In this document: one piece after another, positions 3,334-27,488 of the stretch | Numbering within the stretch: the stretch's first letter is position 1 | Layout of the letters: every line of letters starts with the position of its first letter | Source of the DNA: a virus | DNA length: 64,000 nt | Virus record (IMG/VR): IMGVR_UViG_3300024255_000011 | Location: 44,851 to 108,850 of that record | Strand: one strand, 5' to 3' | The notes under the pieces: generated by a model | Database searches by the model: none | Seen by the model: only the letters and a program-made list of their open reading frames with translations | Told to the model about the DNA's origin: nothing | Made by a program: the position numbers and the translations under genes

Positions 3334-6300
3334 TTATTCATCGGGATGAGGTGGGTTGTCATATTGATGTATTGGTGCCAAATTAGAAATGACGAAAGTC
3401 CTACCAGTTTTAACATTATCCTCACCAACCCAGATACATGCCGAAATACCTTTAAAGTGAACTCCAGCTGGGATCTTTTGATCACCCATAAGTCTCATAT
3501 GAATGAGGTTATTGTTTTTATTGAGTTGGTTCATCTGATGATTAGATGAAGTATTATCGAAGCTGTTTCTGAACTTGTAGTTTGTAGAGCTGTCTGGAGT
3601 AAGTTTAACTGCAACACTCTTAAGAATTGTGTCGGGTTCCAAAAGATCTGGAACATCAAAACTTAGATGCATCTGAACAATCTGCCAGTTTCCTGCGTTT
3701 TCTGTTTTGCTATTGTAATCATAGAATAACATGTCAAACTCGATACCAGGTATGAATTCTCCATTGGGTATCTTAAAACCAAATGGGTCTTTCTCGGTAC
3801 CATTAAGTATCTCCCAACCATAGCAGTGGTTAGATGAATTAGATGAATACATCACATCTGTGGTTAACCCAGCTCCTCTGACACTAAAGATATTGTCAAT
3901 ATTATTAGCGGAACCAAAAGTGGTTGGATAAGAAGTGACATTGCGTCCACTATCATAGTTGGAAGCTAACTTGTATTGGGCTCCTGCGTATGATTTCCAG
4001 AAACCTTGTTTACCCATTTGAGGTGAGTATGTCAAGCTAGGTTGGAACCACTTCTTTCTGATATCAAATCCAGTCAATTGACGATTTTCATCAATCGAAG
4101 TGTCAATGGCATATGATCGATATGAAGTAGTACTAGTTTTGTAGGGGTCATCAAGTTCTACGTTTCTGAACCCAGTATCACCGTCCCATGGAACATATTT
4201 ACGTAATGCCTTTCTGACATTGCCACCATCCAACTGAGTGTAATTGAATCCATGAGTTGCAGTCAAGTTCATGACTTCGAACTCTTTTTTGAGCGTGTTA
4301 TCACCAGTAGATTTGACACACTTTGCATTTGTCAAATGGAACAAGTATCCATTGTGTCTGACTCTCATTATTCTAGCCCACGCTCTGACAGCATGGTCTG
4401 CAACAAAGTTGAAATATATTGGATCATTACTTAACCCAGTATAGAACTCTTCATCATTTGTAATGTACTCTGGGTTAAATGGATCACCATATGTACGTTT
4501 ATTATCTTCAGTAATCTCAATCTTTTTCCTTCTGATTGGATACTTGTTTCCAGGTCCTTCATCTACCATCTCAAGTAGAGTTTCGAATGGTGCCATCGCG
4601 GCGAAGTATAGCAAGAACCCAAGTAGAGCCGCCAACAGTGCTGCAATTGCCATGAGGATTTCCTTCAGGAAGGGAATATCATCAAGGTGAAGATCTTTAT
4701 GTACCCTCTTATATTTCCAAGGACTTAAGTGACCATCTGGACTCCAAGTTTTTGGGTTAATACCACTCGTTGGCGTGTTTTTATTACTCTTGTCGCAAAC
4801 AACAAAGAATATATAATCATACCCTATTGGAGCTGTAAGAGTAAACTTTTTGTCTACTTTTGAATTTGGATCCAATACTCTACTATTATACTTGAAATCA
4901 GTCTTAGTCGGCCGCTTATCACCAAAGGGATTGTTGGGCCCGTCTCCAACAGATTTACACCACACAACTTGATACCTAAGATCTTTTGATTTCGTGTTGT
5001 TGTTATAAGACGGAACACCACTTTCCATCCATGAAGCATACTTAAACTCATAAGTACTACCACCAATAATCTTACCACCATTTTTAGGAGGTTGTGCGGC
5101 ACTATATCTCCATCTTGTTTCTGAGAGATCGAACTCTTTGCCTGATACTAGATTTTTGTTTCCAGGGAAAGACGGACCTCTTTGCCACTCTTTCTTTTTG
5201 ATACGAACAGGTACTTCCTCTCCGCGTGGACTCCAGTCTTCAAATGATCTACCGGAATCAGCATCGAAGTTACCAACACCAAAGATAATATACTTCGGAT
5301 GTACATCCTCGTGAGGCTCAATTGGAACGGTACTTCCCTTTGCTGAGCGTTTAGCGAATGTGCCTTGATAATGGAAATAGAATCTATCATTATTATCATT
5401 CGGACTCAAATGCTTTCTCTCCTCAACCACAAACACGGACAGAGCGAAATCGATATTTTGTGTGAGTTCAACATAGAAGTCATCAAGGTGAGCATCACCA
5501 TTGATACTCAATGTATTCAGTGGTTTGATCCACTTAGAATCCGTAAACTCTGGTAAATATTGTTTCCCCGGTGCTCCTGGTTGGTCCCAAGTATGACCAG
5601 TATCACCCCAATAGGCGGGCCCAGTTATTGAATCTACCTCTCTGAAGGTCAATGGTGAAGGTTCTCCCTTAGGACTCCAATCAGTAACTAGAGGAGTTTC
5701 GTGTATGGCCTTGATGTATGTTGCAGACAGGATGAGGCCATCCTTGGAAACGTCGATATTGATTTCCTGTTGGGTGTCCTGAAAATTTGCAATCTTCTTA
5801 AATTGTAGATCAACCCTATTTGTTAATGGATTTAAGGGATCTGGATTTTGGGTTGGATCAAACTCATAAATTTGGATTTCTTGGAAGTGAGCGAGCGCAG
5901 TCGCTGATTTTGGTTTAACTTGGTATCTACGACCAGCTTTGACCTTAATGTATCTCAGAGGTGATTCGAAATGAGTGTTACCAAATTCAGGAGGATCTAC
6001 AGCTTCTTGTTCACCACCCCAATACAGGGGCCCTTCAGTTTTCCACTTTTCTTGTTCTTTAAATTTAAAACGAACAGGTTCCCCATCTCTATTAAATTTT
6101 CCAATAGCTTGCTTGCCATACCAACCATAGAATATCCTTGTTACTCCCTTAGGAGTCTTAAAGGTCATGCCATCACTCTGAGTGTCGGTTGTAATTACTG
6201 GACCCTTTTCATAGAACATATCCCTTACTTTGTCGGGTATATGATAGCTATTATCGACAATGAGCCAACGAAGTAGATCCTCTGGGTGTGTACCTTGTAG

Positions 6301-9300
6301 TGGGATGGGAGGCCAAGACTTCGTATTATCACTTTCATCCTCAGCCCATTGTTGCATTTGGGCCCAGTTATTTTTGTTATCGTCTTTGATGTACCATATC
6401 TGATACGTACCACCTGATGAATTGAAGTCTGTATTCTTTTCAATAGTGTAGTAGGTTTCTGCCTTGACAGAATGTGTATTGAGACCTTTATAAAAATGGG
6501 GATCTGCTACAGATGGGAAGGTGTCCTTGCCCGATGAGTAGTATGCTGGCCCACTATAGGGCATCTCAGTCAGTGCCTCAAACTTGTGGTTGGTGGGTTC
6601 ACCACTCTTACTCCAACTGTCTGGTCCTCTTTCAGAAGCATCGAAGTCAAATGCACCAAAGACAATGGTGTCATTTTCTGCAGTGAAATCAAAGTGAGAC
6701 AATTGTCTGTTTACATATCTACCAGCAACCCAATCTCTAAAGTTTGATGCATCAGGCTTCAACTGTTTGATTTTATTTGAACTCCACATACGCATCTCAT
6801 GAGGAAGATGGAGTTTATAATCATCAGGTTTGTAGATGTTATTATTGTATACATCATTTTGAAGTTTAGTGATCCTATACCTTCTACCTTTCCTGATGTT
6901 TGGTTCATCGTTCTTTTCGCCTAGAACAAAAGTATCACCATAGTAGTAATCATTTTGTCCACCAGCAGAATGTGTTGGGTCTTCACCCCTCTCAATGTTA
7001 GGATACGCGTAGTAGTCAGTTACGTGCGCTCCTGGTTGGAATCCAGGGTTTGGAAGGTGTCCCTCCTGATCATACCCAGCCCAGTAAGCGGGACCTTGGA
7101 GCTCCTCAAGAGGCTCCTCTTTCCAGTAGACTCTAAGGTTTTCTCCTCTTGGATTCCATCCAGTTAGACCTGTACCTCCTTCTGATACTCTCCTTGCTCC
7201 AGTATGCCATGCACCTGATACTACCACACTCCAATTGTAGTCAATAATTTCTGGGAAGGTGAAATAAATTGCATTATCCTCACCATTGAAACTTCTATTA
7301 TTGCGTTGGTGCCAGGCCCATCTATCTTCAACAGGAACATCCTGGTTACCACAAACACCCATCATCCTAAAGTCTTTATTACCTGGTACGTTTAGGTCTC
7401 TTGGTGCTTGACCAAGAAGGAAAACGTGCATGTAGTTGGGGTTTGGTTTTTCAAGAGTAGGGTCAGCGGATGTCCATATCTTATACCTCTTACCTGGTTG
7501 CCATTGTACAGCAGTGCCTTCGTCAGTTGGTACCGCACCATTCAGAGGGTTAACCCAATGATTATTCTTAAGTTGATCAGTTGTTACGAGTGAGTACTTA
7601 TTTGGATATGTCGCATCATTTTCCCAGTCAATCCAGTACTGAGACATATCATTCGCATCTTTTTTGACCTCTCTGTACAATTCCAAGTAAAGAGGTTCAC
7701 CTTTTTTAGACCACTGTTCCTCAGATTTGCCAGCAGCATATACCTTATATTGAATATATTCTGATTGACAGAAGATGGTAACTACCTGCTCATCGTTAAG
7801 CCCTGATCTCCATACAAACTCCTCCATCTGGAATTCTTGAGCATCATTCTGAGACAGACCCTCCCTCTTAATGAATCTAAAGACAATATCAACGTTTGGT
7901 GTTCTGGCAGTTTTCTTAAATGCATATAGAATGCGTTGATTGGCGGGAGGTGGATTCTTAACGTCTATGATATCATCAGAGTTAATGTCAAATACACGTT
8001 CATATTGTTTTTTGGTTTGATCACTTTCATATAATTGACCCTCTAATTCTGACTGTGTTTGTCCGTCTAACCTTAGGATCTCTTTCATCTCTTGTGTGAG
8101 ATGTATCATTGGTTTGTCGTACCTTGACCAGTTAGGTTCTTTGGGGTTATTGCTGCTGTAAACTTCTTCGGAAGCCCAGAATCCACAACCTGTAACATCA
8201 GGCACTTCAGTGATTTCTACATCAATCCCTTCACCAAATCTACTCCAATATTCATTAATGGGTCTGTCTACTAGGGGATTGCCCTTGTCATCATCTGTTT
8301 GGTCATAACGGAATGCACCAAAGAATAGGTAGTCTCCTTGAGCTTCAACCTCAATTGTTTTTGAAGCCCCTGAGTGTTTTGGTCTCAGAAGCAAAGAGTT
8401 ATCATCTTCGTAGTGGTAAAACTTTCTGTTGGGATCACTACCAATTTCTTTATTTCCGAAACTAGGATCTTCGTAGTAATTAGGTTGAATACATCTATCA
8501 TCTGTCCCCCAAATTATTCTATGGGTGTAGATCATGTTATCCCCAGGTGTGATATGGTATTTTCTACCTTTCCTTACCCTAATTGAGTTGTATGTCTCAT
8601 TGTAATCATTCAAAGGGAAGTTATAATATGCACTATTGAAGTCTGGATATCCTCTAAATCCCTTTCTGACATCAGTAACTGATCCAAAATCTCCAAATGC
8701 CCAGTAAGCAGGACCTTTTCTCAAGTCTCTGTTGCCCCTCGCACCACCCATGTGCTCAATTGATACCTCTGGGGCTTGATTTACATGGTCACTTGTACTG
8801 ATAGACACTGGCTCACCATTATTTTTCCAGTCTGCCTTAACACGGTTCGTGTTTCTGGCATGAAAGATCATATGACTAGAAGGAGGTGTGACAACAAACC
8901 CATTGTAATCATTCTTAAGTATAGTTCCACCGTAAATGAAGTTTACATGATCATCTGGGAGATCTTTTTCTGGGAAGTTGTCAACATCAAGTCCGTGATT
9001 TGTCTCAAGTACAAAGTAAATGTCATAATCATACTTGGTTCTAGTGTCTAGTTCACCAGTATTAACATCACCTGAGTACGCAGAAACTTTTAATCTTTCG
9101 CCTTCTTCTACACGCACATTATTTGGTCTCTGACCAAAGAGACCATCAAAATCTTCGCCAGGCAGATATCTATTAAAATGATTCAGTGGTGTTTGCCACA
9201 CATCATCATGGAAATTGGGTCTTTCTCTGTTGATATGGAGCTCACCCCAGTATCCTGGACCATGAATCCATTTTGCTCTGTCAATTTTTTCTGTAATCGT

Positions 9301-12300
9301 CCAAGGTTCACCTCGGTTACCCCAATCCTCTTGATCTATTCTATCAGGAGCTATAGCACCAAGCAGTATCTGAGCGTCTCTATTGGCCAACTGAAATGTT
9401 CTGTAGTTTTCGTATCCAGTTCCCTTAACAAAGGTTCTTTCTGTCCACTCACGTCTCCAAGAATCATCACCATCATTGGAAATATCAGTACCCTCTGGGT
9501 ACTCTGAGACCCATAACTTCTGTTTAATTGGTGCTGGTCTCGATCTCAACTCCTCGTAAATATTATCTTCTGGTGGAATACCATAAATTCTGTAGTATCC
9601 AGGTTGACCAACATATTGCTGACCTTTACCTGCCGACTCATGTGAAATTGGCTTAATCCAATATTCATCATTCAAGTCTGGCAGTTGACCAATACTCCAA
9701 CCATATGGTTTGGTGTCAAGTACCGCGGCAGTCTGAACGTCGGAATAATATGTGGCACCTTTGATCTCCGTTCCATCATATCCATCATAAGGATCGCCCT
9801 TAATTTTTGGTGTTACAAGTACATCAATATACTTACCCTCATTAAGTTTACCTTCATAGTCAATACCCATGTAATTATATCCAGGTGGGTAGTATTCCCT
9901 CTTTACTTTCGATCCTTTTTTGGTGTTGTTGACCCCAAACCACTGCCAGAATGAAGCACGCATGTACCTTTTCTTGGGTTTATACGATTTGTATCCTGTA
10001 GCGTTCCTCTTGTCGCAGTTATATCCCTCAACGGTTGGGCCTTGACTATCTCCAGCAACCCAAGGACCATCTTTAGTGCTTGCAAACCACCAAGTAATAC
10101 CAAAGTCAGACGGACCTTTATGTTCGCACTTTGGTACAATGAAATTGTAATAGATACTCATTTCATCGTCACTAAATGGCCCATAAGTATGACAAATATT
10201 AGTAGGAAGTTTGTCGTACATTGACCAATCTGGCATGGCTGCAGTACTTCCAGATGGAACACAGTACAATCCACGCCATTCTTGTGCAGTAAAATCTGGT
10301 CTATTATCATAGTAGTTGGTCACCAGAATGTCTACACCAGGTTCAGCTTCAGTGGCTACTCTGTTTCTTGCGTCGAATGTGGCAGGCTCTGGTGCTGGCC
10401 CATCATACAGTGAGTACACATCAAAATTTACACTACCATCGTGTTCGTGTCTGTCCAACACAGTGATAATTTCTTGTCCATTACTATCATATGTGCGGTA
10501 TTCGCACTCTGAATATTTGAAATAGTTAGAGATTTGTCCGCCTGCATCCATGCAAGCATCGCACCATCCGAAATGTCCTTTATTATATTGATCTGATGTG
10601 TATACAAATCCTGTTTCCAGAACTACAGCCAAAGCTCCATTGACATATCTGAACTTTGATGCTCTCTTTTCTTTTGTAACATCACGAATGAAGTTAATAA
10701 GATTCAGTTGATCGTTGTCAGTATTTCTATCAAGTAAATACTCACCAATTTGCTCAAAGTCGAAGTCTTGATTGAGTACCCTTGTGGCCTCTCTATTTCT
10801 GATGATATATCCTGTCAGAAGGTTATTGATAACCTCCCTCCAGCTGAGATCTTCACCATTCTTAATTTTTTGAGAAATGTTATCAACAGATACAATTACT
10901 TTATGATCGTATTCTTTTTCTACACCAAGTTGTTTATTGATATAGAAGTTGGTCATATCATACAGAACAGCAAGTGCAGTATGAGTTTGTGGGTCATCAG
11001 TAATTTTGCGTGCAGATAATTTCCTAAACGATCCACGTTTGATAATTTCTTTGAGGTTAAATCCAAACTCACTAAAGTTATTTGAAATGGATTTCTGAAT
11101 CGCATTGCACTTATCGATGGCATTTTGAATGATTGCCTTGTCGTGATCGTTATACTCGCCTGTCCCGCCACCTGTTGGGTCCTCTAACTCATCAAGATTG
11201 AAAGACCCAACGCCTTCGGCTTCGGGAGTTTCTGAAGGTGGTCTCCAGTCAGGCCTGTCCCCAGTAATTTCACTAATGAGCTCAATTAGAGTCATGTCCT
11301 CAAGGGCTTCCATTGCTTCTTGAAGTTTTTTGACATTAGCTTCAAGAAGACCAGAAGAGGTGTCAATCCTATTCATTGTATAGGCAAACTTTATACCTAC
11401 GTTTGATTTCGTTTCCGCAGAGACGTTATAGTGTGATCTAAAAAATCCTGACATGCCAACGACGCCATAGTCAAGACCTTCCGTTGGTTGATTTGGATAT
11501 CCCATTTGATCCCTGCCCCTACTGTTTCCAAGGACAAACACCCATTTTCGATCCGATTCATTATCTTCATAAACCATACCAGAACCTTTCGGTTGATCGG
11601 CGAACGCATTGTTTCCACCAGGCATGGAATGGAATCCAGCTCTTAGATATAAATCGCAGTTACTTGGGCCATTGGTCAGCTTACCAGACTGCCATTTGTC
11701 CATGGACTTATGGATAGTAGTTCCAACTCTATCCATAGCATCGACTGCATCTTCCTTTTTATCTAAGAAAGGGTGCACCCAAATAAACTTCTTTGGTTCT
11801 GCAGTAATAAACTTAACTACCTTTTCTGGTAAGTTCAAAATCCTGTGGGGATTCATTGGTTCATTATCAATACCATCTGGCATACCCAGTTTTACGAGTC
11901 TAACCTTGAGTGAATTCTGAGTTTGGTATCCATTTTCTGGGGCTACAGTATAATTCTTATAATCCCATCCAGACCTATACCAGATTTCTAATCCTGGACA
12001 TTCTGGAAATTGATGTATACTATCAACATTGATATTTTCTGGGCTCCAAGGTTGACTTTCATCTAGTTTAATTTGACCACCGTGACAAAAGATAACATCC
12101 CTCAATATATCACCAGGCAACCATGCTGCTTCTTCTAGTAACTCATTGAGTGTTTCTTCGTCAATATCAATGTTATCGAATATCGGGTTACTGACAGTAG
12201 ACACACCACTACCTATAGTGGATACTGTGACGTCGTCTACAATTTGATAATTGAGGTCGTTTAACTGTTGGTTATTAGAATCGCTGGACGAGTCGTTGGT

Positions 12301-12357
12301 GTCCTGATCTTCGTACTGAGAGTCTCCACCACTCCCATAATTATATGAGTAAGTCAT
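3334..12357 (-). CDS. Giant repeat-containing virion protein with internal hydrophobic helix (3007 aa)
   Basis: A 3007-residue protein, the largest in the window. The N-terminal quarter is acidic and unrecognised, with an alpha-helical stretch around residues 340-370. Between about residues 860 and 2550 lies a series of degenerate units of roughly 150-250 residues. Their ends carry W-x-x-x-G-E-P (DWGNRGEP, DWKNNGEP, QWSKKGEP, SWSKSGEP, DWSPKGEP and variants; I count ten), often followed by GPAYW or GPxYW. At residues 2567-2591 there is an uninterrupted Ala/Leu-rich hydrophobic helix (AIAALLAALLGFLLYF), unusual for a soluble fibre. The last 400 residues form a different, unrecognised domain. 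Its ATG overlaps the stop of the collagen-like gene (ATGA), which suggests coupling. Location in the fibre cluster suggests a long adhesin or baseplate-attached spike. The function is inferred. Confidence 0.8.
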   Translation of the reverse strand: MTYSYNYGSGGDSQYEDQDTNDSSSDSNNQQLNDLNYQIVDDVTVSTIGSGVSTVSNPIFDNIDIDEETLNELLEEAAWLPGDILRDVIFCHGGQIKLDESQPWSPENINVDSIHQFPECPGLEIWYRSGWDYKNYTVAPENGYQTQNSLKVRLVKLGMPDGIDNEPMNPHRILNLPEKVVKFITAEPKKFIWVHPFLDKKEDAVDAMDRVGTTIHKSMDKWQSGKLTNGPSNCDLYLRAGFHSMPGGNNAFADQPKGSGMVYEDNESDRKWVFVLGNSRGRDQMGYPNQPTEGLDYGVVGMSGFFRSHYNVSAETKSNVGIKFAYTMNRIDTSSGLLEANVKKLQEAMEALEDMTLIELISEITGDRPDWRPPSETPEAEGVGSFNLDELEDPTGGGTGEYNDHDKAIIQNAIDKCNAIQKSISNNFSEFGFNLKEIIKRGSFRKLSARKITDDPQTHTALAVLYDMTNFYINKQLGVEKEYDHKVIVSVDNISQKIKNGEDLSWREVINNLLTGYIIRNREATRVLNQDFDFEQIGEYLLDRNTDNDQLNLINFIRDVTKEKRASKFRYVNGALAVVLETGFVYTSDQYNKGHFGWCDACMDAGGQISNYFKYSECEYRTYDSNGQEIITVLDRHEHDGSVNFDVYSLYDGPAPEPATFDARNRVATEAEPGVDILVTNYYDNRPDFTAQEWRGLYCVPSGSTAAMPDWSMYDKLPTNICHTYGPFSDDEMSIYYNFIVPKCEHKGPSDFGITWWFASTKDGPWVAGDSQGPTVEGYNCDKRNATGYKSYKPKKRYMRASFWQWFGVNNTKKGSKVKREYYPPGYNYMGIDYEGKLNEGKYIDVLVTPKIKGDPYDGYDGTEIKGATYYSDVQTAAVLDTKPYGWSIGQLPDLNDEYWIKPISHESAGKGQQYVGQPGYYRIYGIPPEDNIYEELRSRPAPIKQKLWVSEYPEGTDISNDGDDSWRREWTERTFVKGTGYENYRTFQLANRDAQILLGAIAPDRIDQEDWGNRGEPWTITEKIDRAKWIHGPGYWGELHINRERPNFHDDVWQTPLNHFNRYLPGEDFDGLFGQRPNNVRVEEGERLKVSAYSGDVNTGELDTRTKYDYDIYFVLETNHGLDVDNFPEKDLPDDHVNFIYGGTILKNDYNGFVVTPPSSHMIFHARNTNRVKADWKNNGEPVSISTSDHVNQAPEVSIEHMGGARGNRDLRKGPAYWAFGDFGSVTDVRKGFRGYPDFNSAYYNFPLNDYNETYNSIRVRKGRKYHITPGDNMIYTHRIIWGTDDRCIQPNYYEDPSFGNKEIGSDPNRKFYHYEDDNSLLLRPKHSGASKTIEVEAQGDYLFFGAFRYDQTDDDKGNPLVDRPINEYWSRFGEGIDVEITEVPDVTGCGFWASEEVYSSNNPKEPNWSRYDKPMIHLTQEMKEILRLDGQTQSELEGQLYESDQTKKQYERVFDINSDDIIDVKNPPPANQRILYAFKKTARTPNVDIVFRFIKREGLSQNDAQEFQMEEFVWRSGLNDEQVVTIFCQSEYIQYKVYAAGKSEEQWSKKGEPLYLELYREVKKDANDMSQYWIDWENDATYPNKYSLVTTDQLKNNHWVNPLNGAVPTDEGTAVQWQPGKRYKIWTSADPTLEKPNPNYMHVFLLGQAPRDLNVPGNKDFRMMGVCGNQDVPVEDRWAWHQRNNRSFNGEDNAIYFTFPEIIDYNWSVVVSGAWHTGARRVSEGGTGLTGWNPRGENLRVYWKEEPLEELQGPAYWAGYDQEGHLPNPGFQPGAHVTDYYAYPNIERGEDPTHSAGGQNDYYYGDTFVLGEKNDEPNIRKGRRYRITKLQNDVYNNNIYKPDDYKLHLPHEMRMWSSNKIKQLKPDASNFRDWVAGRYVNRQLSHFDFTAENDTIVFGAFDFDASERGPDSWSKSGEPTNHKFEALTEMPYSGPAYYSSGKDTFPSVADPHFYKGLNTHSVKAETYYTIEKNTDFNSSGGTYQIWYIKDDNKNNWAQMQQWAEDESDNTKSWPPIPLQGTHPEDLLRWLIVDNSYHIPDKVRDMFYEKGPVITTDTQSDGMTFKTPKGVTRIFYGWYGKQAIGKFNRDGEPVRFKFKEQEKWKTEGPLYWGGEQEAVDPPEFGNTHFESPLRYIKVKAGRRYQVKPKSATALAHFQEIQIYEFDPTQNPDPLNPLTNRVDLQFKKIANFQDTQQEINIDVSKDGLILSATYIKAIHETPLVTDWSPKGEPSPLTFREVDSITGPAYWGDTGHTWDQPGAPGKQYLPEFTDSKWIKPLNTLSINGDAHLDDFYVELTQNIDFALSVFVVEERKHLSPNDNNDRFYFHYQGTFAKRSAKGSTVPIEPHEDVHPKYIIFGVGNFDADSGRSFEDWSPRGEEVPVRIKKKEWQRGPSFPGNKNLVSGKEFDLSETRWRYSAAQPPKNGGKIIGGSTYEFKYASWMESGVPSYNNNTKSKDLRYQVVWCKSVGDGPNNPFGDKRPTKTDFKYNSRVLDPNSKVDKKFTLTAPIGYDYIFFVVCDKSNKNTPTSGINPKTWSPDGHLSPWKYKRVHKDLHLDDIPFLKEILMAIAALLAALLGFLLYFAAMAPFETLLEMVDEGPGNKYPIRRKKIEITEDNKRTYGDPFNPEYITNDEEFYTGLSNDPIYFNFVADHAVRAWARIMRVRHNGYLFHLTNAKCVKSTGDNTLKKEFEVMNLTATHGFNYTQLDGGNVRKALRKYVPWDGDTGFRNVELDDPYKTSTTSYRSYAIDTSIDENRQLTGFDIRKKWFQPSLTYSPQMGKQGFWKSYAGAQYKLASNYDSGRNVTSYPTTFGSANNIDNIFSVRGAGLTTDVMYSSNSSNHCYGWEILNGTEKDPFGFKIPNGEFIPGIEFDMLFYDYNSKTENAGNWQIVQMHLSFDVPDLLEPDTILKSVAVKLTPDSSTNYKFRNSFDNTSSNHQMNQLNKNNNLIHMRLMGDQKIPAGVHFKGISACIWVGEDNVKTGRTFVISNLAPIHQYDNPPHPDE

Positions 12358-15766: not shown

Positions 15767-16303
15767 TCAAGGATTAATAATTGACTCTAGTTGAGCAACT
15801 TGCTCTGTAAGTTGATTAACCTGAGACTGAAGATCGTTAACCAGTGAGGCAGTAGACTCTGTAAGGTAATGAGCTGTTGTGACACTAACCCAGTTACCTG
15901 TGTATGGATCTACAGTATTGCCATCATCATCAACAACAGGTGAAGCGTTTGGGGTTACATAATAAATCTTCAGGAGACTATTTTTAGTATCATACCAACA
16001 GGTTCCAGGAAGTGGATCAATTGGGATGTCAATATTATATTGGTCTAGGTTTGGATAAACATCGGCCAACGTTGGAGGAGTATCACCACTGTAAATAATT
16101 GATCCGGTGTTTTGACCAGAGGTGACTCCAATCCAACCAGGAGTACCTTGTGAATCAATATCAGATGAAAATACGTACATCTGCAGAGAGGATGAACTGA
16201 CCCAAAGTTCTCCATCTCGTCTGAGAGGAGAATTAACATCAGGTTCTACCGGCCTAAGAAGTACCGTGTTTCTAAGTTCTGTTACTCCGGGAGTGCTAGT
16301 CAT
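15767..16303 (-). CDS. Small GDLW-module virion protein with C-terminal coiled coil (178 aa)
   Basis: A 178-residue protein. Two copies of the GDLW module are visible: DGELWVSSSSLQMYVFSS...W at about residues 30-60, and GTCWYDTKNSLLKIYYV...NWVSV at about 99-141. The C-terminal 30 residues form a heptad coiled coil (LVNDLQSQVNQLTEQVAQLE) that probably trimerises the protein. This plan (modules plus terminal coiled coil) is shared with the adjacent 224-residue protein and the end of the 2266-residue protein. A connector or short-fibre role is inferred. Confidence 0.75.
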   Translation of the reverse strand: MTSTPGVTELRNTVLLRPVEPDVNSPLRRDGELWVSSSSLQMYVFSSDIDSQGTPGWIGVTSGQNTGSIIYSGDTPPTLADVYPNLDQYNIDIPIDPLPGTCWYDTKNSLLKIYYVTPNASPVVDDDGNTVDPYTGNWVSVTTAHYLTESTASLVNDLQSQVNQLTEQVAQLESIINP

Positions 16304-17003: not shown

Positions 17004-18146
17004 TTATGTGAGGATGAGCTCACCTTGTAAGGTTGAATCTAGATCATTCCAAACGTAAATAGTTTGTTGGTTATTAATATTCAAATTACCAATTGAAAGG
17101 AGGTAGCCAAAAGCATCACCTGTTTGACCCTCAGTTGGAATATCCACAATTGGACCATACTCAATTCTCTCTGTGCTGATTATGTCATTCTGTGTTGCTT
17201 GGCCAAATGGCTTAGTTGCAAACTTGAATGCAAAGGCGGTGTCATCTTGAAGAGAATTAATTGGGATGACAAAGAACTGAGGACTCAGTAATGTTGAATC
17301 CACTGAGAAGTTACCATCACCTGTAATGACTTGAGTCGATCCGTCGTTAAACGCAAGGAATTCTTCGCTGACACCATCTTGATTCACAAGGCCAATTCTC
17401 ATTCCAATGTATTGTAAAGGATCAACCTCAAGAGGTACTGGTCTCAATCTAATAGCAGGAGAGCTCTTAGACTCAGAAACAAACTGATCTGAGTATTCTT
17501 CCTTAGCTGAAAGTTTACAAGAAACGTTAAATGTTACTTGAAAGTCTCCATCAAAAATTGCAGTTCCTGGTTGAGCGGTTACGTTAGTGATAGCAGAATT
17601 AGGATTACTGAATGTAATGTAATGCTTTGTTAGTACTCCATCGACATTCCTTTCGACATACTCAGGTGCCGATCTCCACTCGTAATTGATATATGACTCT
17701 GGTGCACCACCTTGTGGTCTGGTGATTTGGAACATAGTCTCTTCACCTTCGAAGGGAGTAGACTTACCAGAAATCTCAATTTTACCAATAACAAGATTAC
17801 GATTTGGATCTTCGGGTGACATCTCTGGGTTGGTAGAGGATACCCACCTACCCTGTACAGGATCAGAAGAATCGAGAGTTGGAGGTTTATGATACACTCT
17901 CAACTCGCATAGTCTTTGATCCCACCACAAGTCACCATCAAGAAGTTGAACACCCTCGAGCGCAGGATCAATGGTGTCACTATACATCTTAGCGCCAGGG
18001 CTATTCAAAGTCTTCCAGGAATTCTTTCCTGGATCCCAAAAATACACAACCTTAGTTTGTGGATGAACCCAAGTGGAGTAACTTTCTACTCCTAGACCGC
18101 CTGGTCCACTTGGGAAATCATCAGAATCTAACCAACTATCTGTCAT
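17004..18146 (-). CDS. Fibre/baseplate accessory protein with GDLW module (380 aa)
   Basis: A 380-residue protein. The N-terminal DFPSGPGG...VVYFWDPGKNSW is the FPxxP module. DGDLWWDQRLCELRVYH...GRWVSS (about residues 70-102) is a GDLW module. Residues 120-215 (FEGEETMFQIT, INYEWR, PGTAIFDGDFQVTFNVSC) have the strand pattern of an Ig- or PKD-like beta sandwich, which is a tentative reading. The C-terminal part is beta-rich and unrecognised. It is preceded by a late promoter and followed 2 nt later by the 224-residue gene. A structural role in the adsorption apparatus is inferred. Confidence 0.72.
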   Translation of the reverse strand: MTDSWLDSDDFPSGPGGLGVESYSTWVHPQTKVVYFWDPGKNSWKTLNSPGAKMYSDTIDPALEGVQLLDGDLWWDQRLCELRVYHKPPTLDSSDPVQGRWVSSTNPEMSPEDPNRNLVIGKIEISGKSTPFEGEETMFQITRPQGGAPESYINYEWRSAPEYVERNVDGVLTKHYITFSNPNSAITNVTAQPGTAIFDGDFQVTFNVSCKLSAKEEYSDQFVSESKSSPAIRLRPVPLEVDPLQYIGMRIGLVNQDGVSEEFLAFNDGSTQVITGDGNFSVDSTLLSPQFFVIPINSLQDDTAFAFKFATKPFGQATQNDIISTERIEYGPIVDIPTEGQTGDAFGYLLSIGNLNINNQQTIYVWNDLDSTLQGELILT

Positions 18147-18162: not shown

Positions 18163-18170
18163 TTATTTAT
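18163..18170 (-). promoter_or_regulatory. Late promoter
   Basis: ATAAATAA on the minus strand, overlapping the stop of the 2266-residue gene and 16 nt upstream of the ATG at 18146. Confidence 0.6.
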
Positions 18171-21100
18171 TGGTTTTCTTGGGACTCTAGGATAGAGAGT
18201 CTAGCACTCATTCTAGAAATCTCATTTTTCAGTTCCTCAACCTCTGCATTTACTTCAAATGCCGTTGTTGCGGGAATTGATTTATATCCAGTACCCTGAA
18301 CAGGAACCCATACAAAGTCAGTGGATCCAGATGGGATGTAAGCGACTCTCATTTCAGCGGAGTCAGTATCAAACCAAAGATCACCAGACTTCGTAGTGCC
18401 CTTTAGAGGTTGAATTGAGTCGACATGTACCTCAAATCTGTTATCAAGGACAGCCTTAAGGTCACCTGTCACAGAAATCCAAGACTTAGCTGAGAAGTTG
18501 TATGTGTATATTATGTAAGTCTCTGCGTCAATCCAGAGATCACCATTCTTAGCTATTGAAATAGGAGGCTCAGAGTCCTGTAACCAGATGTTACTGAAAG
18601 ACTGAGTTACATTATCTTCTCCACCACCAGATGCTGCACCCAATTCAATCCAGAAGACATTTTCATCTGGCTTGTTGATTAGGTCATCATCAGAAGGATT
18701 AACGGTTCTGAATTCACAAACATAGATGGAGTAGTCAGTTGGATCGATCCAAAGATCACCCCTCTGAGGTACATAGTGACCCTTGACATCATTGATATCT
18801 GGGATAATATGTACTGTTGGTTTCAGTGTGTGAAGTTCATTCAGAATGTCAAGGTTCAGGATATTGGCCTGTTCCTGAGTTTCATATCTGATCAGTTCAC
18901 CATCAGGTCCAACAATATCACTGGTACCTTGAGGACCATCACCTAGGGCCCCTCTCGAATCACCAAAGAACCTTTTGCTAGTCTCGACCGCACGAGGAGT
19001 GTTAACGAGAACAACATCTCTAGTAGTTACTCTGCCCAGTGGGTTGTCGATACAAACAGATCCCGACGCGGCTCTCATAAAGGTCCCTTCAGGACCCTGA
19101 GGACCTGATCTACCATAAACCTTAGTCAGGCTGTTAGTGCCATTCAGGTTCTGATAGAAGATGTTCCAGATGCCAGTTTGTCCAGGATCTCCATCATCGA
19201 GATCAATACTATCAACACTAAAGACTGTGATGATGCCCTTGGCGATGATGTTAGAACCATCCGAATTCTTGAGAGGTTCGTTGGGGTAATTATCACTGAT
19301 TCCCTCAGCAATTGTGCCCCAGTGAATCGTGCCACCATTGTCAGTTTCCTTACATCCAGCAATCAAACCGAAATATGGTTCGTGTGTTTCACCAAAGTTG
19401 ATACAAACTGATCCATTAATCGGATCAACATAGTAACTATTAACCAATCCACCAGATGGACTTTGTCTGTAAAGACTTATCGACTTAACATCAGAAGATC
19501 CTGGTGGTCTGTAGAAACAGGTATAGGTGCCGAATCCATTGGGATAGACATCAGATGCTACAACAAGCTCAATCTTTTTGACAAGAATGGGGTTGCCATT
19601 TTCCAACACCAACTCGCCACCAGATCCAGTGGCGTAGTTGTTATCACTACCCCAATACAGGTAACCCTCAACATCTACCTCTTCACAACCAATCTTAGGA
19701 TGCTCATTGGGACCTGGATCAACTGGTTGATCTGGGCCAGGGCCTTCGGGGACAATTGGAAGACAGATGCCATCGATACAACCATAACCTTCTGGACAAT
19801 CAGAGTTTAGATTACAACCAACTCTACATCTTCCATCAATACAAATAGTACCATTAGGACAATCTGCGTCTTCATCACACTGGGCTGGGAAACATGCTCC
19901 TGGAGGTGTCAGACATGTCTCATTGTCATTAGGACAATCACCATCTACCACACATTGTGGGCGACAAATGCCAACAATACAAATGTAACCAGGAGGACAC
20001 TCTCCATCTGGTCCACATTCACCTTCAGGCTTTCCACCTGGGACACAATGTCCATCCCAACAAATAAAGCCAGGAGGACAATCGTTATCTCCGTTACAGG
20101 GTTTCAGACAAATATTGCCAACACACTCCATCTCTCCAGGACAATCTGTGTCAGAGGTACAGGAGGGTCTACACTTACCATTGAAACACTCAAATCCTGT
20201 AGGACAATCAACATCATCTTCACATCCAATCAGTGGGAGACAGATACCACCGCCAACACATTCGTGTCCAGGAGGACATTCGTTGTCTGACCCACCAGGA
20301 CAGGTTGGGAAACACACTCCATTATAACATTCATATCCATCAGGACATCCATTAACGGAACAATCTGGACGACAAATACCATCAAAACAAACAAAGTTTG
20401 AGGGACACTCACCATCGTTGCCACAATCGATATTGGGGATACACAGTCCACCAATACACATAAACCCTTCAGGGCATGTACCATCATCACAAGGTCTGTA
20501 GCAACCACCGTTGGGCCCACATTCAAATCCATCAGGACAATCTGAATCAATAGTACAAGATGGACGACATAAACCATCAATACACTCTAGTCCAGTCGGA
20601 CAATCGTCATTTGCGTTACATCCAATAACTGGAATACATGCTCCTAGGAGACACTCATATCCAGGAGGACACTCAGTGCCATCACAGGGAGGATAACACC
20701 CACCATCTACACATACAAGGTCTCCAGGACATCCAGTGCCGTCAGGTTGACAGGTAGGGCGACAATGTCCATTAATACAATCCCAAATCTCGCCAGTGGG
20801 AGGTGTTGGACAATCAGTACCATCATCACATCCTCCAGGAAATTCAGGTCCAGGTCCAATTGGAAGACATACACCACCAATACAGACATGACCTGTTGGG
20901 CAACCTTCTGGGGGACACTCAGGGAGACATACACCATCGAAACAAAGGAACCCTTCACCACACTGGTCGTCATTTACATCACAATACTCTCTACATGCTC
21001 CTAGGATACATTCATATCCAGCTGGACAAGGTACGGTACATGGTCCATAGATTGGGTGACAATGGCCATCAATACATTGGAATCCATCAGGACACTCATC

Positions 21101-24100
21101 ACCATTAGGACAAGGCTTCAGACAAAGTCCACCAACACACTCATATCCACTAGGACACTCATTGCTGCTATTGAGGGGACACTCAATAATGACACACTCT
21201 CCATCCAGACAATGATAACCTTCTGGACACTCGCCATTACATCCCTTACCTGGGACACAATAGGATTCGCCATCAATTGTTTGACAATGGAATCCTGGAG
21301 GACATAACATACCCTCCTCATCACCACAAGGTTTCAGGCAGATACCCTGAACACAAAGGAATCCAGCGGGACAATCTCTGTCACCTCCAGGACATTCGAT
21401 CTGTGCACAGATGCCACCAATACACACGAATCCTTCTGGACAATCCTTATCTTCCTCACATCTACCACCAATTGGTTCTTCTGGTGAATACTCACAATAG
21501 GAATCTACATTATCAACCTCAATGTAATATCCACCAAGTGGTGACTTACCAAACTGTTGTCCTGCGACAACGAGTTTCTCGTTCTCATCCAGATAAATTG
21601 CTGACCACTCCTGATCGGATGTGATATCAAAGTCAGGATTATCACAAGTATCAACTGTAAAGGTAGCAAGAACTCGTCTAGCTAGGAGTTGTGTGCTCCC
21701 ATCAGTGATTCCAGTGGTATTATCACTACCATCATTCCAATACAGTTCACCAGCTGAGTAATTTGGATCTACTCTGTTACAATCAGGGAGGAAACCAAAG
21801 TGAACATCACCTTCACACTCGTCTGGATCACAATTGGTACCATCAAGGTAGTAACCTTCTGATGGTGACTGACCATAAGTGATTGTTGTGCCTGATGTAC
21901 CATCAGCTCTCTTGAATACACAAATCCAATCACCAAACTTAAGGTTATCGGAGTTAAAGGATACAACACCAACAATAAATGTGGCGTCTGTTACATCATT
22001 TCCATCTACATCCTTAATCAGGTCACCAGTAGTTCCATCACCCCAGTGGAGTGTGGTTCCAGTGGTGAGGAGAGTCTTGCGACAACCTGTGATTTCACCT
22101 CTTACTGGTATTCCATTACCAATGATATCACCAGGGTCATTCTTACATTTGACATCAGTAGTGTCAAGGAAGAACGCCGTGCTGTCCTCAATGGGATCAG
22201 CTGGGTAAATGCCTTCTCTTGTTGCTTGTCTTACTTCTTCAACGCCACCAACCAGTTTGACATACAGACAATCCCACTTACCATAGTTGTTATCGCACTT
22301 ATCATCAGTGGACACTCTCAGAATCTTGACTACATCAGTGTCAATAACTTCAGATGTAGCGAATACATCAATGTCACTGACTGGACCCCACAGAAGGTTG
22401 GTACCTTCTTCTGTTTCTCTACAACCCTCTGGTTGTGCGTATTCGGTCTCATCCAGAGGACAGTTATCCTCCTCAATATCTACCAAACAATCTCCTAAGA
22501 GATAGAAACCAAATGGTGGAGAAGATGTCTCACTACCATCTTGGCGATGTACCACCAATTTTGTCTGATTGAGATCAGTGATAACCAGACTGAAATACAC
22601 CTTGTTATCCAAGGTCATTGGACGATAAACCCTCTTGACCTTATCTGCCAAGGTACCGTTGCTGTAATTTACATCCTCTCCAGTGAGAGCAATGTATTGA
22701 CTCTTTCTACCCCAGTAAAGTTGCGATGCCGTCAATCTCTCACGACATCCAGTAAAGATACCAAACTGCAGTTCTGGAAGATCTGATACATCATCGAGAC
22801 AATGACCATTATCCTGAATGAAGAATCCTTCTGTTGTACCATCATCTGTTACAGTTGGGGAATAACCAATTGCAAATCCACCACCAATCTTCTCATAAAC
22901 TGCAGCCCAAATACCTTCTTTATCTGTCTCATTGACATTTGGATCTGTACTGAAAACATAGAGAATTCTCTTACAATCAATTACCTTATCACCATTAGAG
23001 CCTGGTGAACTGTAAGAACTGGCTCCAGTTGTACCATCTCCCCAAAGGAGTGCCCCAGTAGATGCGACATCATCAAGTGCTTCACACCCAGTGATGTTAC
23101 CAGGCCAGGGTAGTGTGGTACCTTCTTCGGGTGCTTCCACACTTGGATTCAGACACTCATTGTCACTAACAATAAAGAATCCGATCTCACATGTGGCTGG
23201 ATCGATATTACCTTCATAGATTACTGTATCGATATTACCATCAAACTTGGTGTATGTAAGAAGCCAGTCGCCAGTGATAGTACCATCGTCCTCTATAACA
23301 TAACGAGTACCAGGAGCACTGACTACAAAGTTGAGTTTCTGTACTCCATCAACATATAATCCATTATCATCAACTGGGAGGGATTCTGCTTCGATCCCAT
23401 TACCCCAATACAATCTACCATCATTATTAGGATTGCCGTCTCCGTCAACATCAGAGACTTCTTTACATCCCTCACTAGCAAGGCAACCAGGTACGGTTGG
23501 AGGTAGTGGTTCCTCTGGAATATTGACATCACACTCAGCATCAGCAATGAATGCACTTCTGGTGTCTACGTCAAAAGAGTTATCAAAGATAGAAGCGACC
23601 TTAATGTCTGTGGCATCTACACTGGTATAGTATACATTATACTTACCTTTCATTGAGTCTCTGTCACAACCCTCAAAGGTTATGGCTTTGATCTCAGTGA
23701 CCCCTTCAATTTCTGACCCATCATCTAAAATGGGTGTGCCCAAGGGCTCGGCAGCTTCGGGGTCATAATTATCATAATCATCTTGTGAACCCCAGACCAG
23801 TTTGTTGGTATAATCACCAGCTGGTTCTAATACTGCACAACCAATAGGTTTAATAGGTAGTGGTTGACAACCATCTTGGTCATCACCACAAGAATCTGGG
23901 TCATCGTAAACCAGGAAGTATCCCTCAGGACCTGTAGGGGAACTAATGCCTTCTGTGCTGATTTCATCAGAATCGAGCACTTTATCATCGCAGTTTGTAG
24001 CGCCAACTGCATTCCAACTCTGGGAGTAGAATGTCTCAGGAACTGTGCCCTGAGGCTCATAACCCATCGCGATGGTGCCAGTGATGGATTTGATATCAGT

Positions 24101-24967
24101 TCTTACAAGTTTGGCCCCAGTAAGGTCACCAAAAAGATTACCACCATCATACCAGGTCTCATATACAGATTGAGGACCCCAATACAAGTCTGCACAATCT
24201 CTAACTTTCTTGCAACCAAATACTGTACCGGCTGTTGGTGGCTGAATGGTGCCGCCTCCGCCACTGCCGCCGCCGCCATCACAAGGGTACCAACCACCTG
24301 TGCCGCTGTTAAGGTCTGGGTCCCAACACACAGTTTGTCCAGGTTTGATGCCGTCCATATCGACGTCATCCATTTTCTGGAGTCTAACTTCACCAGAACC
24401 AGGTGACTGTCCATCACCACCCTGACCGATACCAGCAACAATCGTTTGACCTTGCTCATCAAGGGTTTGACGAATGATTCCAAGTTGGTTAGTAAGATAT
24501 TCAACCTTCTCTTCAAGCTGACCACTCTCAGAATCAGAGGTGATTACCTGTTGATTATTTTTCTTGACGTATCCAGATAAAGAATCTGCCAGTGACTGAA
24601 TGTGATCAAAGGGAGATTCACTAATCTCTTCCTCTTCCTCAATTGATTCAGGTTGTACATAATCTGGGATGTATTCTTGTGCTGTTCTCTCTGCATCTTC
24701 CTGCTCCTCATCTAGAGCATACTTATTCCTCAAGTATTCAGTCAATCTTGTATCGACGTCACCACCTTCAGTAATATTAGCTTTAATTTCTCTTACAACA
24801 TCATCAGTAAGTTCAATTTCGTTATTATTGAGCTTCTCTATGAGTTCTTTTTCGTAATCTTCTTGAGTCGGTTGGATCTCACCACCTGCTAACATGCTGG
24901 CTTGATCTACGTTTACTTCCTCAAACAGGTCGTCTAACTGACTAAAAAGATCCTTATCGTTTGTCAT
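18167..24967 (-). CDS. Giant Cys-rich modular adhesin/fibre (2266 aa)
   Basis: A 2266-residue mosaic. Residues 1-200 are acidic with a coiled coil near 150-175. A fibre motif (DDVDMDGIKPGQTVCWD) and a Gly/Ser linker follow. Residues about 245-1165 hold eight units of about 115 residues with the pattern GC......LYWG...........GYF.....C. Residues 1170-1738 hold about 25 repeats of about 22 residues with four cysteines each (C-x(4-8)-CP.G..C..G.C, for example CPEGFMCIGGLC). Two more LYWG units follow (about 1755-1972). Three GDLWxD modules and a C-terminal heptad (LKNEISRMSARLSILE) end the protein. The Cys spacing resembles disulfide modules of extracellular proteins (Dickkopf/EB-like, myxobacterial Cys repeats); this is resemblance, not a search result. 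It has its own late promoter. I infer a long disulfide-stapled adhesin. Confidence 0.82.
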   Translation of the reverse strand: MTNDKDLFSQLDDLFEEVNVDQASMLAGGEIQPTQEDYEKELIEKLNNNEIELTDDVVREIKANITEGGDVDTRLTEYLRNKYALDEEQEDAERTAQEYIPDYVQPESIEEEEEISESPFDHIQSLADSLSGYVKKNNQQVITSDSESGQLEEKVEYLTNQLGIIRQTLDEQGQTIVAGIGQGGDGQSPGSGEVRLQKMDDVDMDGIKPGQTVCWDPDLNSGTGGWYPCDGGGGSGGGGTIQPPTAGTVFGCKKVRDCADLYWGPQSVYETWYDGGNLFGDLTGAKLVRTDIKSITGTIAMGYEPQGTVPETFYSQSWNAVGATNCDDKVLDSDEISTEGISSPTGPEGYFLVYDDPDSCGDDQDGCQPLPIKPIGCAVLEPAGDYTNKLVWGSQDDYDNYDPEAAEPLGTPILDDGSEIEGVTEIKAITFEGCDRDSMKGKYNVYYTSVDATDIKVASIFDNSFDVDTRSAFIADAECDVNIPEEPLPPTVPGCLASEGCKEVSDVDGDGNPNNDGRLYWGNGIEAESLPVDDNGLYVDGVQKLNFVVSAPGTRYVIEDDGTITGDWLLTYTKFDGNIDTVIYEGNIDPATCEIGFFIVSDNECLNPSVEAPEEGTTLPWPGNITGCEALDDVASTGALLWGDGTTGASSYSSPGSNGDKVIDCKRILYVFSTDPNVNETDKEGIWAAVYEKIGGGFAIGYSPTVTDDGTTEGFFIQDNGHCLDDVSDLPELQFGIFTGCRERLTASQLYWGRKSQYIALTGEDVNYSNGTLADKVKRVYRPMTLDNKVYFSLVITDLNQTKLVVHRQDGSETSSPPFGFYLLGDCLVDIEEDNCPLDETEYAQPEGCRETEEGTNLLWGPVSDIDVFATSEVIDTDVVKILRVSTDDKCDNNYGKWDCLYVKLVGGVEEVRQATREGIYPADPIEDSTAFFLDTTDVKCKNDPGDIIGNGIPVRGEITGCRKTLLTTGTTLHWGDGTTGDLIKDVDGNDVTDATFIVGVVSFNSDNLKFGDWICVFKRADGTSGTTITYGQSPSEGYYLDGTNCDPDECEGDVHFGFLPDCNRVDPNYSAGELYWNDGSDNTTGITDGSTQLLARRVLATFTVDTCDNPDFDITSDQEWSAIYLDENEKLVVAGQQFGKSPLGGYYIEVDNVDSYCEYSPEEPIGGRCEEDKDCPEGFVCIGGICAQIECPGGDRDCPAGFLCVQGICLKPCGDEEGMLCPPGFHCQTIDGESYCVPGKGCNGECPEGYHCLDGECVIIECPLNSSNECPSGYECVGGLCLKPCPNGDECPDGFQCIDGHCHPIYGPCTVPCPAGYECILGACREYCDVNDDQCGEGFLCFDGVCLPECPPEGCPTGHVCIGGVCLPIGPGPEFPGGCDDGTDCPTPPTGEIWDCINGHCRPTCQPDGTGCPGDLVCVDGGCYPPCDGTECPPGYECLLGACIPVIGCNANDDCPTGLECIDGLCRPSCTIDSDCPDGFECGPNGGCYRPCDDGTCPEGFMCIGGLCIPNIDCGNDGECPSNFVCFDGICRPDCSVNGCPDGYECYNGVCFPTCPGGSDNECPPGHECVGGGICLPLIGCEDDVDCPTGFECFNGKCRPSCTSDTDCPGEMECVGNICLKPCNGDNDCPPGFICWDGHCVPGGKPEGECGPDGECPPGYICIVGICRPQCVVDGDCPNDNETCLTPPGACFPAQCDEDADCPNGTICIDGRCRVGCNLNSDCPEGYGCIDGICLPIVPEGPGPDQPVDPGPNEHPKIGCEEVDVEGYLYWGSDNNYATGSGGELVLENGNPILVKKIELVVASDVYPNGFGTYTCFYRPPGSSDVKSISLYRQSPSGGLVNSYYVDPINGSVCINFGETHEPYFGLIAGCKETDNGGTIHWGTIAEGISDNYPNEPLKNSDGSNIIAKGIITVFSVDSIDLDDGDPGQTGIWNIFYQNLNGTNSLTKVYGRSGPQGPEGTFMRAASGSVCIDNPLGRVTTRDVVLVNTPRAVETSKRFFGDSRGALGDGPQGTSDIVGPDGELIRYETQEQANILNLDILNELHTLKPTVHIIPDINDVKGHYVPQRGDLWIDPTDYSIYVCEFRTVNPSDDDLINKPDENVFWIELGAASGGGEDNVTQSFSNIWLQDSEPPISIAKNGDLWIDAETYIIYTYNFSAKSWISVTGDLKAVLDNRFEVHVDSIQPLKGTTKSGDLWFDTDSAEMRVAYIPSGSTDFVWVPVQGTGYKSIPATTAFEVNAEVEELKNEISRMSARLSILESQENQ
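19751..21460 (-). repeat. About 25 tandem four-Cys repeats inside the 2266-aa protein
   Basis: A protein-level tandem repeat of about 22 residues and about 100 cysteines, encoded at 19751-21460. The consensus is C-x(4-8)-C-P-x-G-[FYH]-x-C-[IVL]-x-G-x-C-x-P. Individual units differ in sequence while cysteines, Gly and Pro stay fixed, so the array is old or under selection rather than a fresh DNA amplification. Confidence 0.9.
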
Positions 24968-25199: not shown

Positions 25200-25207
25200 T
25201 TATTTAT
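25200..25207 (-). promoter_or_regulatory. Late promoter
   Basis: ATAAATAA on the minus strand, overlapping the stop of the 762-residue gene and 8 nt upstream of the ATG at 25191. Confidence 0.55.
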
Positions 25208-27488
25208 TCCTTCTAAGTTTGAGGGTCTGAATGGGAAGAGTTCGAAGCTCATCGAAGGCGTATGCTCTTGCCCAAAGCCCATAGTTGTGTCTCAAAGTGA
25301 CATTTTCAACAGGATGAATAATATCTGGGCCAGCTAAACCATCTGGATCAGCTGGATCTAAAGGAGCTCCAGGTTCAATTGTGTTGTGGGTAATCCTCTT
25401 TGTTTGTGTAATGGTTTGTTCTGTTGCTAAACTCACATAACCATTCACATCCATTGTAGATCCGAGCATCCACTCATTATCTACAGTGTAAATCATGTGT
25501 TGGTTGAGTAGCACCTCAATGCGAACACAGGAAATTCCATTCACACACTGAGATCCTGGTGGACATCCACCTGCGGGATCACACGGCGCAATAGATATGC
25601 CACTTAATGAAGGTGGGTTAGTAAGGTTCTCTGTGAATCCCCAACTTGGATTGGACACTACACTTGGTGAGTTTCCATCTCCACTATTGTTTAGATAAAA
25701 ATCACCCACCACTGGATTATTGGGTGGCGGATCTCCTGCGTTCCAATCTCCTTTGAATCTTAAAGATCCAGGAATGTTAAGGTTCACCAGTTGTGATCCA
25801 TCACCAATAAACCCACCATTCTCAATTAAAACATTACCATTTTTAATTGTCAGGTTATTCTCAATGTCTACATTTTGATCGAAATCTGCATCACAAACAA
25901 CGTTCAGTGTTCCGTTGAGTTGGAAATGATCGAAACAATTTTTGCCAACAGTTAAGTTGTGATCAATAGTTACATCACCATCAAAGTAGGCGTCACACTT
26001 AGTGTTAAGTTGTCCAAGAATGTTAATGTTATCATTTAAACAATCTTTACCAAGATTGATATCCCCTCCACCAACATTGATGTCTCCAAGAAGATTAAGG
26101 TCTCCTTCAACATCAAGGTCACAAGAAACAGTTACATTACCATTCAACTCAATGTCTGGTGCTGTGTCACACTCCTCTCCAGGGGGTCCAATAATGTGAG
26201 GACCATCACCAGTAACATTAATGTTATTAAGTGTTGTGTCACCCTTTACATCAAGGTCACAGTTGATTTCTACATTACCATTCAATTCAATGGGACTGTC
26301 ATCACAATCTTCATTCTTATCTCCAACTGTCAGTCCGCCATCAACCTGTAAATCTCCTTTTAGGTGACTATCTCCACCAACTTCAAGATCACACTGAATG
26401 TCAACACTTCCATTCAACAAAATTTCTGGTGGGTCATCATCACAATCAACATCACTAGGTCCAATGCTGTGAGGACCATCACCATTGACTTGTAAATTAC
26501 CTTCAACTGTTAAATCACAATTGATTGTTGTTGGTGCATCAATTGTAACTGAACCTTCCAGACATCCATTGCTCCCTAAGAGGACATCACCCAATACAGT
26601 TAAATCGTTTTCAACATTTAAATTACCTTCAACTGTAAGGTCATTAGCAATCTTGATATCACACAGGACATAAACATTCCCGTTTAGATTAATTTGATTG
26701 GTGTTTGATCGACACTGGGTATCAGGGTTTCCAATGTTTATGGTGCCACCAATAACATCAAAATTAACATCGCCACCAACTGTTAGTTCTTTATCTACTG
26801 TAAGATCACACTTGACTGTTGTGTTGCCATTGAGAATGATTTCATTATTACATCCACTACCAATTGTGGCATCACCTTTGATTGTAAGATCACCATCACC
26901 AAGAATATCCCCACCAATGACTGCATCACCGCCTAAATCAAACCCACACTCTGCAACCAATTCACCTTTGATTAGGATTTTATTATCACAATCAGTTCCT
27001 AGGGTTGAATCTCCATCAATAATAAGGTCTCCACCACCTGAAATATCTCCACCAACATCCAAATCTCCGCCAAGATTCAATCCACCATCCATATTAACGA
27101 GGCAGTTAAATCTTGTGGTGTTATTGATAGTGAGTGTGTAAAAACACGCCTTATCAAAATTACCAATCACCACATTGCCATTGACAATCTCAGTGGTTCC
27201 TGCCTGGTTGGTTCTTATTCTGTCTCTTCCGTGGGTAACAATGATAAAGGTGCCATAATCACTCCCATAAATGCCTGACGTAGCATCTCCAATTGCAACA
27301 GAAGGATAATCACGTTCACCTAGTGGGAAAGTGATTCCATTTGAAATAGTACCAATTGAATTCTTAAGATCTCTCCAATCTACTCTGTATGTGAGATCAT
27401 TTGTAGCGTCATTGATGATAATAGAATCATTATCTTCAATGTTTTGAATCTCAGGTAACTGAGTGATTCTAATATCATCGTAAGCCAT
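25200..27488 (-). CDS. Beta-helix tail fibre with paired cysteines (762 aa)
   Basis: A 762-residue protein. The N-terminus (ITQLPEIQNIEDNDSIIIND...YRVDWRDL) is a docking motif shared with the 363-residue neighbour. Then comes a fibre element (SVAIGDATSGIYGS). Residues about 110-560 are ten successive units carrying DLTVxGDLxVxGD-like strands, each with one Cys before and one after an I.LNG.....CDL turn (VKCDL, INCDL, IQCDL, VSCDL). The pattern suggests a stacked beta-helix shaft stapled by regular Cys pairs. FIGDGSQLVNLNI near residue 560 is a known fibre motif. A single four-Cys repeat (CDPAGGCPPGSQCVNGISC, encoded at 25527-25583) links it to the 2266-residue adhesin. Its own late promoter precedes it. 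Confidence 0.8.
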   Translation of the reverse strand: MAYDDIRITQLPEIQNIEDNDSIIINDATNDLTYRVDWRDLKNSIGTISNGITFPLGERDYPSVAIGDATSGIYGSDYGTFIIVTHGRDRIRTNQAGTTEIVNGNVVIGNFDKACFYTLTINNTTRFNCLVNMDGGLNLGGDLDVGGDISGGGDLIIDGDSTLGTDCDNKILIKGELVAECGFDLGGDAVIGGDILGDGDLTIKGDATIGSGCNNEIILNGNTTVKCDLTVDKELTVGGDVNFDVIGGTINIGNPDTQCRSNTNQINLNGNVYVLCDIKIANDLTVEGNLNVENDLTVLGDVLLGSNGCLEGSVTIDAPTTINCDLTVEGNLQVNGDGPHSIGPSDVDCDDDPPEILLNGSVDIQCDLEVGGDSHLKGDLQVDGGLTVGDKNEDCDDSPIELNGNVEINCDLDVKGDTTLNNINVTGDGPHIIGPPGEECDTAPDIELNGNVTVSCDLDVEGDLNLLGDINVGGGDINLGKDCLNDNINILGQLNTKCDAYFDGDVTIDHNLTVGKNCFDHFQLNGTLNVVCDADFDQNVDIENNLTIKNGNVLIENGGFIGDGSQLVNLNIPGSLRFKGDWNAGDPPPNNPVVGDFYLNNSGDGNSPSVVSNPSWGFTENLTNPPSLSGISIAPCDPAGGCPPGSQCVNGISCVRIEVLLNQHMIYTVDNEWMLGSTMDVNGYVSLATEQTITQTKRITHNTIEPGAPLDPADPDGLAGPDIIHPVENVTLRHNYGLWARAYAFDELRTLPIQTLKLRRNK

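Follow-up and report, generated by a model that had tools for sequence, protein, structure and literature searches.

The window analysed here, a stretch of 64,000 bases, belongs to a 108,850-base IMG/VR record that is probably itself a fragment. The TerL and gp6 of this virus are nearest to those of the T4-like Synechococcus phages S-N03, S-B68, S-H34 and S-CRM01, and on this sequence affinity the source virus is classed as a T4-like cyanophage. ORF A, a giant minus-strand gene preceded on the same strand by genes for gp25-like, gp6-like and other baseplate proteins, is encoded inside the baseplate/fibre gene block, in agreement with the structural location proposed by an earlier reading made from the letters alone (hereafter, the sequence-only reading). 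Beyond what that reading described, the window contains a second array (52036-53628), a single unit (25200-27488) and ten Cys-bearing domains flanking the ORF A array. The features are as follows.

18167-24967, minus strand: ORF A, giant Cys-rich structural protein (2266 aa, 137 Cys in total), with a syntenic full-length homologue in contig L042
24221-24967, minus strand: ORF A N-terminal region, residues 1-249, without signal peptide and without relatives in phage records
21476-24220, minus strand: eight 'GC...LYWG' domains preceding the array, residues 250-1164, first and last Cys invariant in each
19763-21460, minus strand: 25-unit four-Cys array, residues 1170-1735, based on unit count, DUF7107 match and a fold model (pLDDT 84)
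19034-19693, minus strand: two 'GC...LYWG' domains following the array, residues 1759-1978, first and last Cys again invariant
18170-19033, minus strand: ORF A C-terminal region, residues 1979-2266, carrying three GDLWxD motifs
25200-27488, minus strand: bactofilin-like (beta-helix type) fibre with one Cys unit and ten regularly spaced Cys pairs
25527-25583, minus strand: single four-Cys unit CDPAGGCPPGSQCVNGISC, missing from the corresponding site of the G001 orthologue
52036-53628, minus strand: second protein with Cys units (530 aa, 37 Cys), with a fibre-type C-terminus
52762-53481, minus strand: 36-Cys array, nine four-Cys units by Cys count, residues 50-289 of the 530-aa protein

The region at 19751-21460 (ORF A residues 1170-1739) contains exactly 100 Cys, and the repeat count of the sequence-only reading, about 25 four-Cys repeats with about 100 Cys, proved exact, with 25 units of four Cys lying within residues 1170-1735. 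The unit follows the pattern C1-x(3-7)-C2-x5-C3-x4-C4, with x5 in 23 and x4 in 21 of the 25 units, and successive units are joined by linkers of 3-12 residues. The motif CP.G..C occurs 20 times in the array against 0.36 expected from shuffled sequences (shuffle maximum 3). No tandem repeat is visible in the array at the DNA level; the units are old and have drifted apart, to a mean pairwise amino acid identity of about 52% in gapped alignments. The Cys codons of the array (96 TGT : 4 TGC) show the same bias as those in the rest of the window (139:15), and the array is therefore not an obvious recent foreign insert.

The ten 'GC...LYWG' domains that flank the array, eight on one side and two on the other, are each ~100-120 residues long; one of them was modelled as a beta-rich fold (pLDDT 87), and a fold search with it returned no confident match. 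Regarding the ends of the protein, which had been described as fibre-style, the C-terminus carries the three GDLWxD motifs and is weakly similar to two other ORFs of the window (15767-16303 and 17004-18146), but neither the N- nor the C-terminal end had any match in 50,697 phage records. The 530-aa protein matched phrog_892 (tail fiber protein; 2.1e-15), and its C-terminus is common to many cyanophage fibre proteins.

The only full-length homologue of ORF A found (53% identity, tblastn) lies in L042/G001, a contig that is syntenic with the window and whose baseplate genes are 83-88% identical. Its array comprises 29 units compared to 25 in ORF A, the extra ones being whole-unit insertions. All 100 Cys of the window array are kept in the homologue, whereas the remaining array positions are 43.5% identical, and dN/dS at the array is ~0.2, a rough figure since synonymous sites are almost saturated. 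Over whole proteins, Cys retention in the relative reached 136/137 for ORF A and 19/19 for the aligned part of the bactofilin-like fibre, compared to 5/20 for the fibre encoded at 3334-12357, indicating that Cys is specifically constrained in the first two. A co-loss test for Cys pairing yielded only incomplete units that were cut alignments, not substitutions at Cys. The ten Cys pairs of the bactofilin-like fibre (25893-27146, minus strand) are spaced 14-17 residues apart, and this protein may also be disulfide-stapled, given the conservation of 19/19 Cys in the part aligned with its relative. The fibre-type ORF at 3334-12357 (minus strand, 3007 aa), which has no PHROG match, is 41% identical in the syntenic relative, compared to 83-88% for neighbouring baseplate genes.

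At the family level, ORF A passed the cut-off of DUF7107 (PF23416; 42.5 bits, cut-off 24.6) over seven stretches but failed those of the EB module (PF01683; 20.5 bits, cut-off 24.3) and Dickkopf_N (PF04706; 18.2 bits, cut-off 25). Two of its relatives (L093 and L178) pass both EB and Dickkopf_N cut-offs, and 20 of 20 four-unit tiles matched DUF7107 and EB, so that the earlier assignment to disulfide-type modules of the EB/Dickkopf class holds. All three families share their Cys spacing with the ORF A units; ORF A differs from them in being a phage structural protein with 25 copies and no signal peptide.

Structure prediction, proposed earlier as a check, was carried out with AlphaFold2 on one four-unit tile, accompanied by 19 further tiles, none of them overlapping, taken from the window and from relatives. 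The four-unit tile was modelled with a pLDDT of 84, as a short turn and a hairpin per unit. The best fold matches in the PDB were squash knottins, several with 20-22 residues at 0.5-1.1 A, with weak E-values (best 0.055) because the units are only about 20 residues long. Unit 14 gives a gap-free alignment with the squash trypsin inhibitor EETI-II, its four Cys matching Cys II, III, V and VI. Knottin disulfides pair II-V and III-VI, and the pairing C1-C3 and C2-C4 is therefore predicted for the units. Both Cys spacing and predicted fold resemble those of EETI-II and MCoTI-II at these four positions, and the modelled fold agrees with the knottin hairpin core held by disulfides II-V and III-VI. 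In contrast to these inhibitors, the ORF A units have no Cys I and IV, and with them lack the third disulfide and the inhibitory loop, and are arranged in tandem; with four Cys rather than six, and no I-IV disulfide, they are not inhibitor cystine knots. Two disulfides inside each unit are likely. Motifs with six Cys and a spacing near that of squash inhibitors, e.g. CSGPCDEENPCPEGCECVDGEC (C-x3-C-x5-C-x3-C-x1-C-x4-C), were observed in other viral contigs matching the same DNA pattern (L108, L113, L114, L122, L030, L037, L045, L061, L062 and L095).

The distribution of the repeat in other phages and in hosts was assessed with a strict two-unit DNA Cys-spacing pattern, on which all counts rest, as the one-unit pattern includes chance matches and was left uncounted. 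It matched 32 viral contigs and 48 cellular stretches. The unit-bearing phage proteins include gp5-like hubs, gp6 wedges, fibres and other large proteins, and the number of units varies at given sites. The gp5-like hub possesses 2, 3 or 4 units where S-SSM7 carries a Big_5 Ig-like domain, and the gp6 wedge 0, 1 or 2, with none in the Gly-rich loop of P-TIM40 and one or two at that place in other phages. In the bactofilin-like fibre, presence and absence are reciprocal, with one unit at one loop in the window and three at another in G001. Clear units occur in the cultured phages S-SCSM2R, P-SSM7 and S-MS29, P-SS2 being a diverged case. The gp5-like baseplate hub/tail lysozyme of S-SCSM2R, a T4-like cyanophage, has three units like those of ORF A, although these sit in the central hub and those of ORF A in a large fibre-type protein. 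The repeat anatomy and the modularity of the unit can be regarded as firmly established.

The known decoration modules of phages are for the most part beta-sandwiches whose folding takes place in the cytoplasm, and the Ig-like and BACON decorations are domains of beta-sandwich type, without obligatory cystines. The fold of the four-Cys unit is unrelated to these domains. Like the unit, however, Ig-like (Hoc, Big_5) and BACON decorations are optional, modular and variable in number on virion proteins (PMC10385173, PMC6949934), and Big_5 shares the gp5 site in S-SSM7. Searches of the open literature for phage modules of the cysteine-repeat, EGF/Dickkopf or knottin kind found nothing relevant.

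Concerning the virion, ORF084 of the Prochlorococcus siphovirus P-SS2 (2612 aa, 282 Cys) has nine exact four-Cys units against 0.07 expected, with a marginal DUF7107 score (24.9 bits, cut-off 24.6). With a mean of 43 peptides, it ranks with the most abundant structural proteins of the purified virions (PMC2784084, Table 2), in samples that had been reduced and alkylated ahead of proteomic analysis (PMC2784084). There it was named an unknown structural protein, and the word cysteine is absent from the main text (PMC2784084); the four-Cys units now provide a likely identity for this abundant protein. P-SS2 ORF084 is thus a virion protein with four-Cys units, as in ORF A, but it belongs to another type of phage, its units are more diverged and its remaining domains are unrelated. 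As this case is distant, the presence of ORF A in its own virion is suggested by analogy and gene neighbourhood; the protein is probably tail-associated.

The cellular scan covered one genome each for 84,980 species, with exact spacing only. Nearly all of the 48 stretches came from Myxococcota or 'Deltaproteobacteria', which bears out the myxobacterial relatives named by the sequence-only reading, the rest being from a few Bacteroidota, one Phycisphaerales and a few unclassified bacteria; cyanobacteria gave zero matches in this exact-spacing scan. An initial signal-peptide heuristic gave results skewed by which start codon was taken (17/22 phage ORFs passing) and was replaced by a matched heuristic test, in which signal-peptide-like starts were found in 26/33 cellular ORFs (background 26%) compared to 0/21 viral ORFs (background 1%). 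The module is therefore mostly export-linked in cells and made in the cytoplasm in phages, and the paradox already raised, that of disulfide-type repeats assembled in a reducing cytoplasm, is upheld and sharpened rather than solved. Since an export-type disulfide module occurs in proteins made in reducing cells, phages must somehow produce disulfide-type proteins. No Erv/ALR oxidase was matched in the phage record, which is probably incomplete, and the control likewise gave no signal.

The long rigid stalk envisaged by the sequence-only reading is neither needed nor supported by the distribution of the unit, of which one, two or three copies are also found inserted into loops of hub, wedge and beta-helix-like proteins; self-contained beads fit such inserts better than a continuous stalk. 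A purely mechanical role, with disulfide-stapled beads that do not bind themselves and hold other binding domains off the baseplate, would account for arrays that run without interruption for 25 and 29 units, for the position of the ORF A array between beta domains in one chain and for a unit sequence that drifts while its Cys are retained. It is nevertheless unlikely, as one or two units in gp6 and a single one in the bactofilin-like fibre cannot serve as a stalk, and the linkers range from 3 to 12 residues.

The main chemical rival, which is less likely than disulfides and quite improbable in itself, is that the unit Cys bind zinc or iron and that the protein folds in the reducing cytoplasm without oxidation. 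Synthesis is indeed cytoplasmic, and C-x5-C-x4-C-x3-C resembles the CCCH zinc fingers of Nab2, the top sequence-profile match in the PDB (E 1.7e-4), but Cys and composition account for this score. Moreover, the spacing from C4 to the next C1, which would complete the site, can be anything between 3 and 12 residues, a next C1 is lacking where a unit stands alone, the matches to curated families are to extracellular disulfide domains and the cellular relatives are mostly exported. It is very unlikely that the units act as protease inhibitors or as stability elements shielding the virion from proteases of the host or the environment, even though the nearest solved folds are squash trypsin inhibitors and other viral contigs matching the same DNA pattern show six-Cys knottin-like spacing. 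The reactive loop of squash inhibitors lies between Cys I and II, and it is not part of the four-Cys unit since Cys I and IV are missing.

The preferred reading, to which a probability of roughly 0.6 is assigned, is that of an exchangeable knottin-like surface-decoration module with two intra-unit disulfides, probably adhesive and oxidised after lysis. ORF A would be a structural protein with which a T4-like cyanophage builds its adsorption apparatus, and its 25 units would form tandem minimal knottin-like folds, each a short turn and a beta hairpin with C1-C3 and C2-C4 bonds. As a self-contained module, the unit could be inserted into loops of hub, wedge and fibre proteins in copy numbers from one or a few up to dozens, as Ig-like domains are in other phages, at sites whose sequence suggests exposure to solvent. 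The units may bind the surface of the cyanobacterium weakly and multivalently, an adhesive role for which the chances appear about even, while the label of adhesin for ORF A is plausible. The protein would be synthesised without a signal peptide in the reducing cytoplasm and its unit Cys oxidised late, most simply post-lysis in oxygenated water, locking the compact fold; both this disulfide state and its timing are presumed. More tentatively, a family of marine phage virion proteins might exit the host in reduced form and complete their folding only on oxidation post-lysis or at the host surface, oxygen acting as a maturation signal for tail adhesion modules.

A module mostly exported in cells is found here in up to 29 tandem copies within proteins made in the cyanobacterial cytoplasm, and a tiny exchangeable scaffold is identified on hub, wedge and fibre proteins. 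How and when virion proteins gain cystines becomes a question that can be tested in cultured phages.

Two further groups of unit-bearing proteins were observed. P-SSM7_230 (L180:4971-8330), which also has a PA14 match, and its S-MS29 counterpart (L181:4881-8996) are annotated as 'major head protein', a label that looks wrong; both are large and carry a Cys unit close to the N-terminus. Each is followed, a few genes downstream, by a glutaredoxin gene. In L072/L157 (G003, 204 kb record), a fibre-type protein starts with a collagen-like GPQG N-terminus, after which paired Cys units alternate with a repeated glycine-rich domain.
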